From a virus: 29,830 nt of DNA. Within the stretch, counting starts at the first letter, position 1, and each line of letters begins with the position of its first letter. The stretch covers positions 1 to 29,830 of the IMG/VR virus record IMGVR_UViG_3300021963_000474. One strand, 5' to 3'. Shown here one piece after another: positions 11,727 through 19,576 of the stretch. The notes under the pieces were generated by a model. It was not told the origin of the DNA. It searched no databases and was given only the letters and a program-made list of their open reading frames with translations. The translations under genes and the position numbers were made by a program.

Positions 11727-11776
11727 TTGCTTGCCACCTTTGTTATTGCGCCCATTAGGTGCGCTTATCAAAGCCT

Positions 11777-13924
11777 ATGAGTTCCATTGACGGCAACGCC
11801 ACCTCCGTTCCCCCTGATCCCGGCCTGCAACTTGCCCCACCGGAGAACAAGGGTCCAGACTTCAACCTGCTCAAGAAGGCGTTTGAGGACTGCGTGCGGG
11901 ACAACCAGCCGTTCATCGACCAATGCCGGCTGAATTACGAGACGCGGTACGCCATCTGGAACGGGCAGTCCGCCGACGGCAAGAAACACTCCCGCGAAGG
12001 CAGCAAAGTCAGCCCGACGCCGTGGGACGGCGCCAGCGACCTGCGCGTTTTCCTTGTCGATAACATCATCAACAAGAAAGTCGCCATGGAGTGCATGGCG
12101 TTCAAGCGGGCCAACCTGACCGCCGTGCCTGTGGGCGCGGAGGACGGTGCCCGCAGTCAGCTCGTAAGCAACTTCATGCGTTGGCTGATCCAGACGCAGA
12201 TTCCCGAGGTGGAGCGCGAAGTCGAGATGTGCTCCAACTACATGAACGAGAAGGGCGTCGCCGTTATGGGTCAGTTCTGGGAAAAGCGGCGCGAGAAGGT
12301 GCTGGTCAACGTCCGCGTGCAGGATCTCCAGCAGCAGTTCCCCAACATCGACATTGTCGCATTGGTCGAGGACAAATCCGCCGCTGATGACCTGAAAGCC
12401 ATCTTCCAAGAGCAGTATGGTTGCTCCAAGGACAAGGCGGCGAGGATGCTGAAAGAGCTGCGCGAGTCTGGCGAGACCACAGTGCCGATGGACGGTCCCG
12501 AGCGGTCGTATCCCGTCATCCGTGCGTTCAACTTGGACGAACACGTTTTTATCCCGTCGTTCTCGACGGATCTGGAGCGTGCTCCTGGCATCTACCGCGT
12601 TGAGTACTTCACCGCCGAGCAACTGCGGGCGATGGTCTACACGGATGGCTGGGACGAAAAGTGGGTCGAGAACGCGATTCAAAAGGTACGCGGTAAGCTA
12701 ATCACCATCAGCCCTAGCGAGTATCTCCAGCCCATCTCGCGCTCGTTCGTTTACACGCAGCAACGCTTCACGGATCGCATCGGCGTCGTCTACGCGTATC
12801 AGCGGTTGTCCGACGAAGATGGCACGCCTGGCATCTACTGCACGGTGTTCAACCCGATGCTGCCGCCCGATCAGAACCACGACGGATGCGCGAAGACCGG
12901 CCTCTTGGGTTATGCTCACGGCGAGTATCCGTTCGTGCTGTATCGCCGCGAGTACTTGAGCCGTAAGCTCCACGATTCCCGTGGTCTGCCGGAGCCGGGC
13001 AAGCCGTGGCAGGATCAAATCAAGGCGCACAAGGACTCTCGCATCGATGCCGCCTCCCTCGGCATCTTGCCTCCGATCTGCTACCCGCAAGGCCGCCCGC
13101 CGGGTCGTTGGGGTCCGGGTGCGATGATCTCGGAGCGGCGTCCGAACGAGTACCATTACGCCGACCGTCCGATACCGGACATGAACACGGACAAGTCCGA
13201 GCAACTGCTTGAGACTTCGTTCAAGGAGTACAACGGCTTTGCCAGCCGAGAGGGCGATCCCGCCATCGACCCGATCTACAATCAGTTTGAGGTCGATAAG
13301 TTCCTCGGCTGCCTCGCCAAGACTTTCCGCCAAGTGTGGAAGCTCTACAAACAGTACGGCATGGATCAGGTCACGTTCCGCGTGATGGGTGTCAAAGATC
13401 CGAACTTCCAACTCTTCAACAAGGGCGACGTGAACGAGGAGTTCGACTTCTACCTCGCGTGGGATGTGCAGTCGCCCGACTTCAAGCGCATGAGCGAGAA
13501 GTGGACTGCGATCATTCAGGCCGCGCAGTCGCTCGACCGGGAAGGCGTCATCGACTGGTCTGCCCTCTGCACGGCGTTCGTGTCCACCATCGACCCGAAC
13601 ATCGCCGAGCGTATCATCCGTCCCGCGCAGCAAGGTCAGCAGCAGATCGTGCAGGACGAGCAGCAGGATCTGGCGCAGATCTTCGCCGGCATCCCGAAGA
13701 ACATCAAGCCCGGCACCCCGCCGCAGATCGGCCTGCAAGTCATCCAGCAGTATCTCCAGCAGCCTGACGTGCAGCAGCGGTATCAGCAGGATCAGCCGTT
13801 TCGCGAGCGTCTGGATGCTAGGGCGAAACAGTACCAGTTCCAGATGCAGCAGCAGCAGAACGCTGTCATTGGCCGCCTCGGTGCAGCCATGCCCGGCCCG
13901 ATGCCCGCCACCACTTCACGATGA
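11777..13924 (+). CDS. Portal (head-tail connector) protein
   Basis: This 715-aa protein has an N-terminal block with SPTPWDGASDLRVFLVDNII, typical of large P22-like portal proteins, helical and strand regions in the middle, and a C-terminal 120 residues very rich in Gln (QQGQQQIVQDEQQDLAQ...). Twelve copies would form the ring through which DNA passes and onto which TerL and the adaptor bind. ATG 11777 is used. A GTG 18 bases upstream is possible. It follows terL by 50 bases and is coupled to the next gene by ATGA. Confidence 0.85.
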   Translation: MSSIDGNATSVPPDPGLQLAPPENKGPDFNLLKKAFEDCVRDNQPFIDQCRLNYETRYAIWNGQSADGKKHSREGSKVSPTPWDGASDLRVFLVDNIINKKVAMECMAFKRANLTAVPVGAEDGARSQLVSNFMRWLIQTQIPEVEREVEMCSNYMNEKGVAVMGQFWEKRREKVLVNVRVQDLQQQFPNIDIVALVEDKSAADDLKAIFQEQYGCSKDKAARMLKELRESGETTVPMDGPERSYPVIRAFNLDEHVFIPSFSTDLERAPGIYRVEYFTAEQLRAMVYTDGWDEKWVENAIQKVRGKLITISPSEYLQPISRSFVYTQQRFTDRIGVVYAYQRLSDEDGTPGIYCTVFNPMLPPDQNHDGCAKTGLLGYAHGEYPFVLYRREYLSRKLHDSRGLPEPGKPWQDQIKAHKDSRIDAASLGILPPICYPQGRPPGRWGPGAMISERRPNEYHYADRPIPDMNTDKSEQLLETSFKEYNGFASREGDPAIDPIYNQFEVDKFLGCLAKTFRQVWKLYKQYGMDQVTFRVMGVKDPNFQLFNKGDVNEEFDFYLAWDVQSPDFKRMSEKWTAIIQAAQSLDREGVIDWSALCTAFVSTIDPNIAERIIRPAQQGQQQIVQDEQQDLAQIFAGIPKNIKPGTPPQIGLQVIQQYLQQPDVQQRYQQDQPFRERLDARAKQYQFQMQQQQNAVIGRLGAAMPGPMPATTSR

Positions 13925-15441: not shown

Positions 15442-16443
15442 ATGGCCCTATCAACCACTTACAACGTAGCGGGAGATCGTGAAGATCTTACCGACTTCCT
15501 CACCATCCTCGCCCCCGAGGATACTCCGAAGATCTCGACCTTCGCCAAGACCAAGCGCATGACCAATGCGTATCAGGAGTGGCAGGTTGACACCTTGAGC
15601 CCCGTCTCGTTTGGCGGCGTGCTCGAAGGTCAGGACGTCCTGGCCTTCTCCAACCAAGCCGTTAATCGCGCTCGTCTGGGCAATTACGTCCAGCAGTTCC
15701 GCGAGCAATGGATGGTCTCCCGCCTCCAAGAGGCTTCCGACGTCGCCGGCGTGTCCAGCGAGGTTGCGAACGCCAAGATGAAGGCGATGCGCGAGATCAA
15801 GCGCGACATCGAAGCCTGCATCGGCTCCGACAATGACCGCCAGCAGGAAGCCCCGCCGGCCCCTTACAAGCTGCGCGCTCTCGGCAAGTGGATCAGCAAT
15901 ACGCCCGGCTCGGACGTTCCCGCTGCCTTCCGCACGCCCGCCGCGAACATCGACACGACCGCCACCGGTTCGCTGTCCGAGTCCGCCTTCAACGACGTCT
16001 TCCAGTCCATCTTCCAGCAAGTTGGTGGTCGCCGTTCCTACACCCTGTTCGCTGGTCCGTCGCTCAAGCGTGCGATCTCCAAGTTCCAGCGTTCCGAGGG
16101 CGCTTCCGGCACCACGAAGACCTATCAGGTCACGCAGGATGCCTCGGAGCACCAGATCGACCTCGACGTCACGATGTACGTCGGCGACTTCCACACCGTG
16201 ACCATCGTGCCTGACCTGTTCAACGGCATCCTCGATGGCGCGGACCCATCGACGACCACCAGCGCCCAGAAGGCCCGTGGTTACGTCATCGATCCCGAGC
16301 TGGTTGGCATCGGCTACATGCTTGGCATTGAGTCCAACGAGCTGCCGGACCTCGGCGGCGGTCGCCGTGGCTTCATCCTCGCGGCCCTCACCCTGATGGT
16401 GAAGAACCCGCTCGGCCTCGGCAAGTTCGCCGCGTCCAGCTAA
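15442..16443 (+). CDS. Major capsid protein, DUF5309/SU10-like HK97 fold
   Basis: The 333-aa protein has the N-terminal signature of this group: EDLTDFLTILAPEDTPKIST, then KTKRMTNAYQEWQVDTLSP, followed by a charged helix (NAKMKAMREIKRDIEACIG), a central region with AFNDVFQSIFQQVGGRR and a C-terminal GYVIDPELVGIGYM. The T-P after the first helix and EWQVDTL are typical of DUF5309/SU10 capsid proteins, which have the HK97 fold. Codon use is strongly biased to C-ending codons (GTC, ATC, CGC, CTC) compared with accessory genes, as expected for a highly expressed gene. No Shine-Dalgarno sequence is visible. Confidence 0.9.
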   Translation: MALSTTYNVAGDREDLTDFLTILAPEDTPKISTFAKTKRMTNAYQEWQVDTLSPVSFGGVLEGQDVLAFSNQAVNRARLGNYVQQFREQWMVSRLQEASDVAGVSSEVANAKMKAMREIKRDIEACIGSDNDRQQEAPPAPYKLRALGKWISNTPGSDVPAAFRTPAANIDTTATGSLSESAFNDVFQSIFQQVGGRRSYTLFAGPSLKRAISKFQRSEGASGTTKTYQVTQDASEHQIDLDVTMYVGDFHTVTIVPDLFNGILDGADPSTTTSAQKARGYVIDPELVGIGYMLGIESNELPDLGGGRRGFILAALTLMVKNPLGLGKFAASS

Positions 16444-16474: not shown

Positions 16475-16942
16475 ATGGCTGATACTGCTGTTACCATCGC
16501 CCGCGCCCGTACCTCGCAGCTCTCGCTGCAAGAGCAGGCGCGTGGCTTCTCGCACAAGTTCACGGTCAAGTCGTCCGACGTTGCCTACGGTGCCGGTTCT
16601 ACCGACACCGTGACGGTTACGCTGGGCGCCCTTCCGTCGAAGTATGTGCTCAACAATGCTCTGGTGAACATCACGACTGCCTTTGCCGGCACGACCGCGA
16701 TGACCATCCAGGTTGGCACCACGACCACGACCAACAGCCTCGTCACCGCGCAATCGGTGCTGACCGCTGGTGTTCTGGCCGGCGTCCCGACGACCGCCAC
16801 CATCCGCACCGCTACGGCGACTGCGAACTTGGTTGCGATCTTCACGAACGCCACCGGTGGCAGCCCGTCCGCCCTCACGGCTGGCGAACTGGACATCTAC
16901 CTGAACATCGTCGATCTCTCCGATCCGACGAAGCTCGGATAA
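16475..16942 (+). CDS. Capsid decoration or minor head protein
   Basis: The 155-aa product begins MADTAVTIARARTSQLSLQE and then is rich in Thr, Ala, Val and Gly with strand-like alternation, ending GELDIYLNIVDLSDPTKLG. It has one of the best ribosome-binding sites of the late block (AGGAGG, eight bases before the ATG) and a C-ending codon bias like the capsid gene, both signs of high expression. Position between capsid gene and terminator suggests a virion decoration protein. That role is inferred. Confidence 0.65.
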   Translation: MADTAVTIARARTSQLSLQEQARGFSHKFTVKSSDVAYGAGSTDTVTVTLGALPSKYVLNNALVNITTAFAGTTAMTIQVGTTTTTNSLVTAQSVLTAGVLAGVPTTATIRTATATANLVAIFTNATGGSPSALTAGELDIYLNIVDLSDPTKLG

Positions 16943-16993: not shown

Positions 16994-17356
16994 ATGGTGA
17001 GCGACAGCGGCATAGTCACCCAAGTACCCAAGGAGTTCGTCCGCAAGTGGTGGGGCGAGATCGTGAACGGTCTCCCAGACGAGAAGGCCAAGGTCCATGA
17101 AGACCAGGCCCGTCTGGCCGCCAAGATGCGCGAACAGGGTTCCACCCGCATGGACGGGTTGGGGCAGATGGCCGCTCGCATCAACAGTCGCCTGTTCTTC
17201 CGGCTACAGGCGCAGCACGGCAACAACGTGCATGAGTGGATGCCGGAGTACCTGAAGGATAACCCTCACCTCTGCGCGACGGGTTATCGCCCAAAGGTTA
17301 ATCCCGCCCGGCATGGCCTGACGGGAGGCTGGATGGGCAAGCAAAAGGACACTTGA
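16994..17356 (+). CDS. Unknown protein between capsid and adaptor genes
   Basis: This 120-aa product begins MVSDSGIVTQVPKEFVRKWW and has a helical middle (EKAKVHEDQARLAAKMREQG) and a basic C terminus (NPARHGLTGGWMGKQKDT). Its ATG directly follows the T run of the terminator, leaving no Shine-Dalgarno sequence. The GTG at 16997 is another option. The stop overlaps the TTG start of the next gene. Function not recognised. Position suggests a head-completion or tail-hub component. Confidence 0.65.
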   Translation: MVSDSGIVTQVPKEFVRKWWGEIVNGLPDEKAKVHEDQARLAAKMREQGSTRMDGLGQMAARINSRLFFRLQAQHGNNVHEWMPEYLKDNPHLCATGYRPKVNPARHGLTGGWMGKQKDT

Positions 17357-18669
17357 GGACGACTCCGTACAGCACGGCTTTAACCCAACTTTGCGGGCTT
17401 ATTGGAGTCCCGACGAGCCGACTGACCACGGAGACTGCGGAAAGCCTCAATACGCTGTTTAACGCGAATGTACGGCAGGTCTGGGGCGCTGGTAACTGGC
17501 CCGACCTGTCCATTTGGGGTGAGGCACGCTTTGCCGGGGATCTGCTGACGTATCCCAACGATGTCAGCCAGACGGCTTACTGGACGGCGACCAACGTCTC
17601 CGTAACGGCTAATTCGATCCCCAACCCCGCTGACAATCGGACAACGGCCAGCAAGGTGCTGGAAACGGTCACGAACGGGCAACACAAAGTAGCCCAGAGC
17701 GTCACCGGCTTCCCCAGCACGCAGTACCAGGCGTCCGTGTACGCCCGCCCAAATGGCCGCAGCTACATCCAGCTAGTGGTCAATGACGGCACGACCAGCT
17801 TCAGCACATTCTTCAACGTCCAAGCTGGGACCGTGGGGACGCAGGCCAACGTCTCGTCCGCCAACATCCAGCAGTGCCCGAACGGCTTCTTCCTCTGCAC
17901 GATCACGTTTACCAGCGGCGCCGCTTGCACCAGCCTCGCTTACTCCGTTGGCGTATCGACGGATGGCAGCACGATCTCTTACGCAGGCGACATCACCAAG
18001 GGCGTGTACCTCTGGGGCAACCTGATGGTGCAGGAGACGAATGTCAGCCCCAACCAGTTCATCGTACCGTACGACCAGACTGGCGAGAAGGTGATTGATG
18101 TCCTCTTCCAAGCGTGGGTGGACAACCCCGCAATGGTCAGCTACCCCCGTCCGCAAGGCTTCGTGGTGACGACCGAGGGGTTCCAGATGATTTCCACGGC
18201 TGGTGGCTTCATGGGGACGAATGGCTACGTCTCGTACAATACCAATCCTGCCAACCCGGTCTACCTGTTCTACCGCCGTGCCCCTTACAATTACAGCGGC
18301 GATGTGTTCAGTGCCACTGCCACCTACGTTGCGGGCCAGTACGTCTATTACACTCGTACGACGGGGGCGCAGGTAGGTACGTCCGATTACTGGAAGTGCG
18401 TAAGCGCCACCACGGCAGGCCAAGACCCCGAGGACACTCCGTCCAAGTGGGAGTTGCAGGAACTACCCGAGGCGTTGTCCGGTATCTTGGTCTGGCAGAC
18501 CTTTGGGGACTGGCTGACGCAGGACGGCCAGATGGAGAAGGCCCAGTCCGCTTACCAGACGGCAGAGCTGAAGAAGCTCAACGAATGGGACCGCATTGAG
18601 CGCCAGATGCCCGATAACTTCCAGGTCAACGTCTACACCCACGTCACCTCACAGTCGAGGTCTTGGTGA
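17353..18669 (+). CDS. Head-tail adaptor with two inserted carbohydrate-binding-like domains
   Basis: The 438-aa protein begins with a helical segment (1-60, TALTQLCGLIGVP...SLNTLFNANVRQVWG) and ends with another (370-415, SGILVWQTFGDWLTQ...YQTAELKKLNEWDR) that together look like a tail-tube adaptor of podoviruses. Between them, residues about 65-235 read as a beta-sandwich of the carbohydrate-binding kind (YWTATNVSVTANSIPNP, VYARPNGRSYIQLVV, GVYLWGNLMVQE). Residues 322-370 resemble a chitin-binding/CBM5-12 module (TYVAGQYVYY, DYWKCVSATTAGQDPE, PSKWELQEL). Start is TTG 17353 with AAGGA upstream, overlapping the previous stop. Adaptor role follows from position and termini. Glycan binding is inferred. 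Confidence 0.7.
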   Translation: MRTTPYSTALTQLCGLIGVPTSRLTTETAESLNTLFNANVRQVWGAGNWPDLSIWGEARFAGDLLTYPNDVSQTAYWTATNVSVTANSIPNPADNRTTASKVLETVTNGQHKVAQSVTGFPSTQYQASVYARPNGRSYIQLVVNDGTTSFSTFFNVQAGTVGTQANVSSANIQQCPNGFFLCTITFTSGAACTSLAYSVGVSTDGSTISYAGDITKGVYLWGNLMVQETNVSPNQFIVPYDQTGEKVIDVLFQAWVDNPAMVSYPRPQGFVVTTEGFQMISTAGGFMGTNGYVSYNTNPANPVYLFYRRAPYNYSGDVFSATATYVAGQYVYYTRTTGAQVGTSDYWKCVSATTAGQDPEDTPSKWELQELPEALSGILVWQTFGDWLTQDGQMEKAQSAYQTAELKKLNEWDRIERQMPDNFQVNVYTHVTSQSRSW

Positions 18670-19194
18670 TTCTGGTTTCCAATGCAAATTATCGCGTATC
18701 CGATAGGCGTGAGTCGCCGTGATGCCAAAATCTTTGGCTATCGCGGAGCCTTTATGCCCATCGGCAAAACGCTTTTGAATTTCAGTTATCTGCTCGGAGT
18801 TCAGTTTGGCATGATGAGCGCGTTCGCCCCGTGGCGACACATGCGTTCCAACGCGCCAAGAATGCTTCAAATTATCAGACTGCGAAACCCACTCCAAGTT
18901 GCTGACATGATTGTTCAGCTTGTTGGAATCCTTGTGATTAACTTGCGCCAAGTTATTGGGATTTGGCAGAAAGGTGAGCGCAACAAGACGATGAACCGAA
19001 ACATTCCAAACTGGTCTTGGTCCATCTGCCAAAGCAACAGTAGCGTATCCATACGGATTTATTCGCCATTTCAAGGCTCGCGGTTTGCTACGACGCCTTG
19101 TAGTGCCAAAGGACCAAGAGCGAATTTGTCCGCTTTCGGTAATTTCGTACAAGGTTTCGTAGCCCCGAATCGGGGTGTAGGTTTCAGTAGTCAC
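18649..19194 (-). CDS. Free-standing HNH homing endonuclease (NUMOD4-HNH)
   Basis: This 181-aa protein has NUMOD4 (IRGYETLYEITESGQIRSWS), an HNH_3 domain (SVHRLVALTFLPNPNNLAQV, NHKDSNKLNNHVSNLEWV) and a C-terminal helix-turn-helix (QITEIQKRFADGHKGSAIAK, DFGITATHAYRI) for DNA contact. Such enzymes cut a site in phages that lack the gene and spread by repair. It is the only minus-strand gene in the late block. The start is GTG 19194. Its stop lies 21 bases inside the 3' end of the adaptor gene, converging with it. Codon use is poorer in G/C than its neighbours, consistent with arrival from outside. Confidence 0.9.
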   Translation of the reverse strand: MTTETYTPIRGYETLYEITESGQIRSWSFGTTRRRSKPRALKWRINPYGYATVALADGPRPVWNVSVHRLVALTFLPNPNNLAQVNHKDSNKLNNHVSNLEWVSQSDNLKHSWRVGTHVSPRGERAHHAKLNSEQITEIQKRFADGHKGSAIAKDFGITATHAYRIRDNLHWKPESPRPRL

Positions 19195-19249
19195 GCATTG
19201 ATACCTAGCTCCGTTCTGGGTTACGTCAACGTTTAATTAGAACAAAGCC

Positions 19250-19576
19250 ATGAGTTCCTTCAATCTTAACAACATCTTCCCGAAACCGGCTTGGTATCGC
19301 GGAAGCGCAGTACCCGATCAACGCCTGACGGTTGATGCAACCGTGGGTGGCGTCCAGTTCTCCACGTTCAGCGACACCAGCAATATGATTGTGCTGGATG
19401 TGCAGGACGCTGACGTGATGTGTACTTTTGATGGCTCGGCCCCGACCAGCACCAATGGTCACCGGCTTTACAGCGGTTCCCAGTACACCTGGTCCGTCGC
19501 CGCCGCCCAGCAGGCCAAATTCATCCGTCAAGGCGCCACCAGCGCCGCCATCCAAGCCTCCGAGTTCCAGTTGTGA
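19250..19576 (+). CDS. Small beta-rich virion protein candidate
   Basis: The 108-aa product begins MSSFNLNNIFPKPAWYRGSA and has strands with VMCTFDGSAPTSTNGHRLYS and TWSVAAAQQAKFI. The FDGSAPT...NGHRL block is a pattern I know from small proteins in phage tail modules. It may be a decoration or tail-surface protein. AAAGCC precedes the ATG, with no Shine-Dalgarno sequence. Stop and next GTG overlap (19573-19576). Confidence 0.6.
   Translation: MSSFNLNNIFPKPAWYRGSAVPDQRLTVDATVGGVQFSTFSDTSNMIVLDVQDADVMCTFDGSAPTSTNGHRLYSGSQYTWSVAAAQQAKFIRQGATSAAIQASEFQL

Follow-up and report, generated by a model that had tools for sequence, protein, structure and literature searches.

Two modules inserted into the head-tail adaptor of a short-tailed phage, one of them in a recurrently altered slot, and their possible role in adhesion at the neck

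The 29,830-nt stretch of viral DNA analysed here (IMG/VR record IMGVR_UViG_3300021963_000474; the whole stretch is referred to as the window) contains a gene in the position of a head-tail adaptor whose product appears to carry two additional domains between its helical ends, which raises the question of what such domains are and what they might do at the portal vertex. The gene order in the window is terminase, portal, small gene, scaffold, major capsid protein, 155-aa gene, 120-aa gene, and adaptor (Table 1). The adaptor reading frame is open throughout, its start codon region shares 4 nt with the preceding gene, and about 30 IMG/VR contigs match residues 1-438 at 66-99% identity, while the C-terminal half is matched in 59 loci; this conservation excludes a chance open reading frame and establishes a real gene. 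Relatives were gathered through portal and capsid searches of viral contigs (contig L034, with a broken adaptor frame, was left out). Direct Pfam and PHROG scans of the adaptor protein gave no match, tblastn of its C-terminal half against a phage collection gave a chance match only, and a scan of genome contigs for adaptor relatives found none.

Table 1. Positions of the adaptor gene, its parts and its syntenic neighbors in the window
Feature	Position	Strand	Description and basis
Portal protein, presumed adaptor partner	11759..13924	+	32.7% identity over 86% to a C75C1 protein; 22.5% to annotated portal proteins
Major capsid protein, synteny anchor	15442..16443	+	phrog_1328, 8.9e-59
Companion gene, 120 aa	16994..17356	+	4-nt overlap with adaptor start; C75C1 and many contigs have the same small gene directly before the adaptor
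Head-tail adaptor gene	17353..18669	+	438 aa, TTG start; homology, and a place behind the major capsid protein that SU10 and C75C1 share
Adaptor core block 1, residues 1-60	17353..17532	+	Predicted helices 6-17 and 26-44, then strand 53-59; core HMM positions 3-59; AlphaFold2
Slot 1 insert, residues ~61-228	17533..18036	+	Predicted jelly-roll (78-227, AlphaFold2); NF048003 match at residues 64-222; absent from insert-less relatives; swapped in L023 versus L019/L018/L026
Adaptor core block 2, residues 229-318	18037..18306	+	Predicted beta part (strands 237-309, AlphaFold2); core HMM positions 49-112; profile-profile alignment with SU10-type adaptors
Slot 2 insert, residues ~319-367	18307..18453	+	Predicted CBM5/12-like small beta module (317-369, AlphaFold2); absent from insert-less relatives and SU10-type adaptors
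Adaptor core block 3, residues 368-438	18454..18666	+	Predicted helix pair 373-390 and 394-417 plus C-terminal arm (arm uncertain); core HMM positions 136-204, 34.5 bits; AlphaFold2

Several neighbors of the adaptor were recorded in their own right. Directly after the capsid gene lies a gene for a 155-aa protein (16475-16942, plus strand), in the place where SU10 has an Ig-like domain protein; it is probably a capsid decoration, and a PHROG match to a spanin (7.9e-4) looks spurious. A conserved protein of ~108 aa (19250-19576, plus strand; sub-threshold CHB_HEX_C_1 match only, E 0.0095) stands next after the adaptor in many relatives (C75C1, L003, and other contigs) and may be an accessory protein of the neck or the tail. 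Encoded on the minus strand at the adaptor's 3' end is a 181-aa homing-type endonuclease (18649-19194) with NUMOD4 and HNH_3 domains (Pfam matches 6.9e-7 and 8.7e-8). It looks like a recent insertion (~18655-19255 in the window), because L003 lacks it although its adaptor is 99% identical; an HNH endonuclease is also annotated under the adaptor match in two SU10-like phages, and such an enzyme might promote local gene conversion beside the modular adaptor. The plus-strand frame at 18682-19236 (ATG start), considered as a further adaptor partner, was rejected, being antisense to the endonuclease and very likely no gene.

The identity of the protein as an adaptor rests on its core. Relatives with the same gene order have adaptors of 202-464 aa, the shortest of which (202-210 aa) consist of the core only, and a profile built from six insert-less adaptors, with the window protein excluded, aligns to the window adaptor in three collinear blocks (residues 2-59, 221-283, and 369-436; 58 bits). 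A family alignment of 27 insert-less cores matches the SU10/LUZ24-type family (hhalign 74%, E 2.7e-5, columns 1-183 of 205), and a local run of the same comparison gave 86% and a score of 37, where 40 column-shuffled controls scored no higher than 12.7 and the reversed alignment scored 4.0. The match is obtained only with the family alignment; with SU10 gp11 as the sole partner, hhalign did not align the core. The Pfam model SU10_adaptor (PF24175) matches neither the window protein nor the 55-row alignment nor the insert-less core alignment, and is approached by one relative, L160, which stays below cut-off with E 0.03 over 5-235. Among the 50 best Foldseek matches of the adaptor model in the PDB there is no known adaptor, and sandwich and CBM proteins dominate. 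The model itself contains N-terminal helices, a beta dock part, and C-terminal helices with an arm. By profile homology, the ~200-aa core of the window protein is that of a podovirus head-tail adaptor of the SU10/T7-gp11 type; we claim homology rather than PF24175 membership because the SU10_adaptor model does not match the window protein. Core block 2 is, by collinearity, the counterpart of the fibre-dock region of these adaptors, and the C-terminal arm is probably the embracing loop. In SU10, gp11 forms a dodecamer between portal and nozzle and comprises a helix bundle, a fibre-dock domain, and the embracing loop (PMC9509320).

Comparison with the insert-less adaptors places the additional segments precisely. 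In the 55-row alignment, the columns of window residues 71-230 and 331-360 are empty in all insert-less adaptors, which fill most of the other columns almost completely; relative to 202 core columns, the window adaptor has 160 aa inserted at core position 60 and 50 aa at core position 132. The alignments thus identify two independent insertions, far beyond chance, as the original prediction had claimed, and its boundaries (65-235 and 322-370) were close, the best estimates now being residues 61-228 and 319-367. AlphaFold2 on the 55-row alignment (pLDDT 85.6, pTM 0.77; uncertain at residues 282-294 and 425-438) predicts that both inserts fold as separate domains, in agreement with what had been expected of a whole-protein model. 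(An earlier model from a shallow alignment had a pLDDT of 48.7, and its fold search is usable for the sandwich only.) The two readings that would have undone the prediction were that the segments are integral strands of a tail tube, or that a standard adaptor matches over the full length; instead, the segments are absent from relatives and separate in the model, and the core profile leaves gaps at both inserts. The original prediction is upheld as regards an adaptor core bearing two surface-type modules that fold separately. Matches to TPR_21 in seven rows of the alignment (best E 0.0023) were taken as chance.

The first insert (module 1) can be assigned to a family. It scores 84.5 bits against NCBIfam GTA_spike_fiber (NF048003; cut-off 36), a cut-off also passed by the corresponding adaptors of L118 and L117 and not by that of L124, and it matches the head spike fibre Rcc01080 of the Rhodobacter gene transfer agent RcGTA (PDB 6tb9_F3) at 3.6e-16, or 2e-21 by profile. 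In the window this amounts to membership of the domain, located inside an adaptor, and not of the head spike. The PDB fold matches of module 1 are headed by E217 gp45 / Pa193 gp46, followed by CBM27, CBM16, a porphyran-binding CBM, CBM61, and CBM4. The sandwich of the E217 protein shows the same motif pattern, and a similar stretch occurs in 85 phage records, those with an annotation being mostly tail, fibre, and structural proteins; module 1 is accordingly regarded as a mobile virion-surface module. The head fibres of RcGTA mediate attachment of the particle to Rhodobacter capsular polysaccharide (PMC7296036). In the RcGTA structure the part of the fibre that module 1 matches is flexible and not visible (PMC7296036), so that capsule attachment is ascribed to the fibre and not to this domain in particular.

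The second insert (module 2) is a probable CBM5/12-like fold, all of its matches lying below curated significance. The Pfam model CBM_5_12 (PF02839) is sub-threshold in 4 of 55 rows (best E 0.0094; in L118, E 0.013 and 15.9 bits against a cut-off of 26.2), and a profile search of the PDB returned the chitin-binding domain of ChiA1 (1ed7), covered almost entirely, at E 0.22 and 0.45. Two probable core aromatics are strongly conserved, Y325 in 64 of 64 sequences and W366 in 63 of 64. The exposed Trp in AGWEP of 1ed7, the chitin-binding residue of ChiA1, corresponds to Q, E, or D in all 64 module 2 sequences. With the binding aromatic absent throughout, chitin binding in the known mode was rejected and chitin is an unlikely ligand of module 2; surface aromatics matter for chitin binding by CBM5/12 modules (PMC8449059). 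The description of both inserts as carbohydrate-binding-like therefore holds firmly for module 1 (NF048003, 6tb9, and the CBM4/16/27/61 fold matches) and weakly for module 2 (sub-threshold PF02839 and 1ed7). Amongst the ligands that had been suggested, the closest precedent for module 1 is capsular polysaccharide, and not mucus or chitin.

A survey of 174 adaptors counted inserts of at least 15 residues. Large inserts lie at core position 60 (slot 1) in most cases, at 71 in three, and at 62 in two, whereas core position 132 (slot 2) is filled only in the clade carrying the spike sandwich, the one exception being C75C1 with a loop of 17 residues. The other inserts are N-terminal extensions and a ~16-residue loop at position 111. 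Slot 1 is empty, or holds the spike sandwich, or holds one of at least six other modules. One of these, with a G-Y-T-x-A-P repeat, is found in six adaptors (L127, L148, L149, L195, L204, and L238) and also in PHROGs of tail fibres, baseplate proteins, and a head closure protein, and by this distribution is another promiscuous virion module. At least five further modules lack good family matches (e.g., YTIL in L135, L154, and L160; FTYxL in L139 and L158; xLLG in L224, L228, L223, and L399). On a tree built from the core columns only, with modules labelled by motif and length so that the finer classes are rough, slot 1 content changed at least 11 times, and well-supported branches require at least six changes of the insert-less state. 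The xLLG module appears at four separate places among insert-less adaptors, which suggests repeated gain or loss. Adaptors of the spike form make up one clade (21 rows, support 100/99), throughout which both inserts are kept. Judged from these alignments and the core tree, the adaptor family has in slot 1 a favored site for insertions.

Exchange within slot 1 is seen directly between close relatives in the spike clade. L023 and L019 are 93.7% identical over 5.7 kb, with only 64% identity within adaptor residues ~71-225, flanked in the adaptor by DNA that is 95-99% identical. In comparisons of L023 with L019, L018, and L026, the surrounding 5.7 kb is 92-95% identical overall, and dS is 1.4-1.6 in the sandwich as against mostly <0.2 elsewhere (maximum 0.41). 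The borders of the divergent stretch coincide with those of the sandwich domain, and homology is lost again ~350 nt past the adaptor, where tail genes begin. By these sequence comparisons, the slot 1 sandwich has been exchanged as a clean cassette; as one clear case among 63 spike-clade sequences from metagenome contigs, it establishes that exchange happens and gives no frequency. Median dN/dS is 0.18 in both inserts versus 0.09-0.12 in the core, the distributions being broad and overlapping, consistent with purifying selection throughout that is slightly relaxed in the inserts; dN/dS gave no sign of diversifying selection in either insert.

The reading that we favor, with a probability of roughly 0.55, is that the adaptor ring bears weak glycan adhesins at the neck, module 1 being in putative contact with host surface polysaccharide. 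In this proposal twelve copies of the ~200-aa core would assemble below the portal; the helical ends and the C-terminal arm would form the ring and contact the portal, and the two modules are inserted in the fibre-dock-like beta part between the helical ends. By analogy with adaptors of the SU10/T7 type, each ring would display 12 copies of each module at the neck, on the outer, fibre-dock side. Module 1 would make contacts with host surface or capsular polysaccharide that are individually weak and useful through multivalency, as the RcGTA precedent and the fold suggest, and these contacts could keep the virion near the cell and help it to orient ahead of fibre engagement, whence we infer a role of the modules in adsorption. 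The content of slot 1 would be replaceable by recombination with the core undisturbed. Since module 2 has a CBM5/12-type scaffold that lacks the usual chitin-binding aromatics, it may bind another ligand or act as a spacer or structural element.

The main rival is that the inserts are structural and stabilise the neck. There is a precedent in the dodecameric adaptor of roseophage R4C, whose peripheral Ig-like domain contacts the capsid and was interpreted as stabilising, an adsorption role being considered unlikely by its authors because the domain is close to the head (PMC10276861); purifying selection on all parts and the retention of both inserts through the entire spike clade would also suit a brace. 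However, relatives with the same gene order manage without any insert, unrelated modules occupy slot 1, and a cassette ~36% divergent has replaced another within surrounding DNA that kept 92-95% identity, which a fitted brace should not easily tolerate; moreover, the nearest sequence kin of module 1 is a fibre known for capsule attachment. We consider adhesion likelier because relatives do without the insert, unrelated modules can take its place, and one allele of it has been exchanged for another; stabilisation we regard as unlikely.

Two further explanations appear less probable still. The inserts could extend the fibre-dock domain and serve as docking sites for the tail fibres or spikes encoded just downstream. 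The exposed long-tail-fibre dock that SU10 and T7-type adaptors have in the same beta region (PMC9509320) would fit such a role, and so would the second loss of homology in L023 at the start of the tail genes, but insert-less relatives also have downstream tail genes, and in E217 gp45 it is a distinct loop (residues 76-123), and not the sandwich, that holds the fibre (PMC10329688), so that docking seems improbable. That the inserts are neutral passengers, promiscuous modules tolerated in a permissive loop, would accord with the spread of such modules over many unrelated virion proteins and with the alternation of bare and filled states on the tree; yet both inserts are under purifying selection (dN/dS ~0.18) and have been retained through the whole, deeply diverged spike clade, and we give this explanation very little credence.

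Adaptors, the GTA spike domain, CBM-like modules, and a decorated adaptor were each known already. In the open-access literature we found no adaptor with a CBM-type insert and no description of slot 1, R4C being the only near precedent. Searches for phage host-range modules normally turn to tail fibres, spikes, and capsid decorations, and the connector is usually regarded as conserved plumbing; here the connector carries and exchanges a module whose family is linked to capsule attachment, at a site where domains have been added to the adaptor core repeatedly in evolution. A broader proposal, which we offer tentatively and would not yet call probable, is that in a widespread aquatic podovirus group the adaptor is a dedicated display platform at the portal vertex, a fixed ring with one exchangeable slot that receives different adhesin modules in different lineages and is cassette-swapped, giving the neck its own role in adhesion to hosts or particles independent of the tail fibres. 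The neck of a short-tailed aquatic phage may thus serve at the same time as an adhesive collar with exchangeable parts. Adaptors without inserts, with the spike sandwich, or with another filling offer natural comparisons for the role of neck decorations, and the cataloguing of adhesion modules should include the adaptor genes of this SU10/T7-like family.

Among known systems, SU10 shares with the window the order of terminase, portal, small gene, scaffold, major capsid protein, small gene(s), and adaptor, with gp11 after the capsid gene, and in LUZ24-like phages a short gene likewise stands before the adaptor. SU10/T7 gp11-type adaptors share the succession of helix bundle, beta part, helix pair, and C-terminal arm, with a collinear profile match along the full length of the core, but lack both inserts (the slot 2 gap is seen in the alignment), and the window protein is about twice as long. 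The claim in the original prediction that adaptors are normally small and buried was too strong, given the exposed fibre dock of SU10 and T7 (PMC9509320) and the peripheral domain of R4C (PMC10276861). Phage C75C1 (OQ984151) has the gene order of the window, and its 351-aa protein at the adaptor position shares with the window adaptor the C-terminal motif E-x-P-x8-V-x-x-T-x-x-D-x-L-x-x-D-G-Q-x-x-K-A. For module 2, the chitin-binding domain of Bacillus circulans ChiA1 is alike in size and motif layout (Y..G..V...Y.KC...AG..P...P..W) and differs in the replacement of its chitin-binding Trp by Q, E, or D. The protein of Pseudomonas phages E217 and Pa193 has the same kind of sandwich within a fibre-bearing structural protein, which is a baseplate wedge of a contractile tail and not an adaptor. 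The R4C adaptor resembles that of the window in being dodecameric with an accessory beta-sandwich at its periphery, whereas its domain is N-terminal and Ig-like and its adaptor is of a different type (PMC10276861). Finally, residues ~90-252 of RcGTA GhsB/Rcc01080 are homologous to module 1, but in RcGTA 11 capsid vertices bear one such fibre apiece, whereas in the window the domain lies inside the adaptor at the portal vertex.
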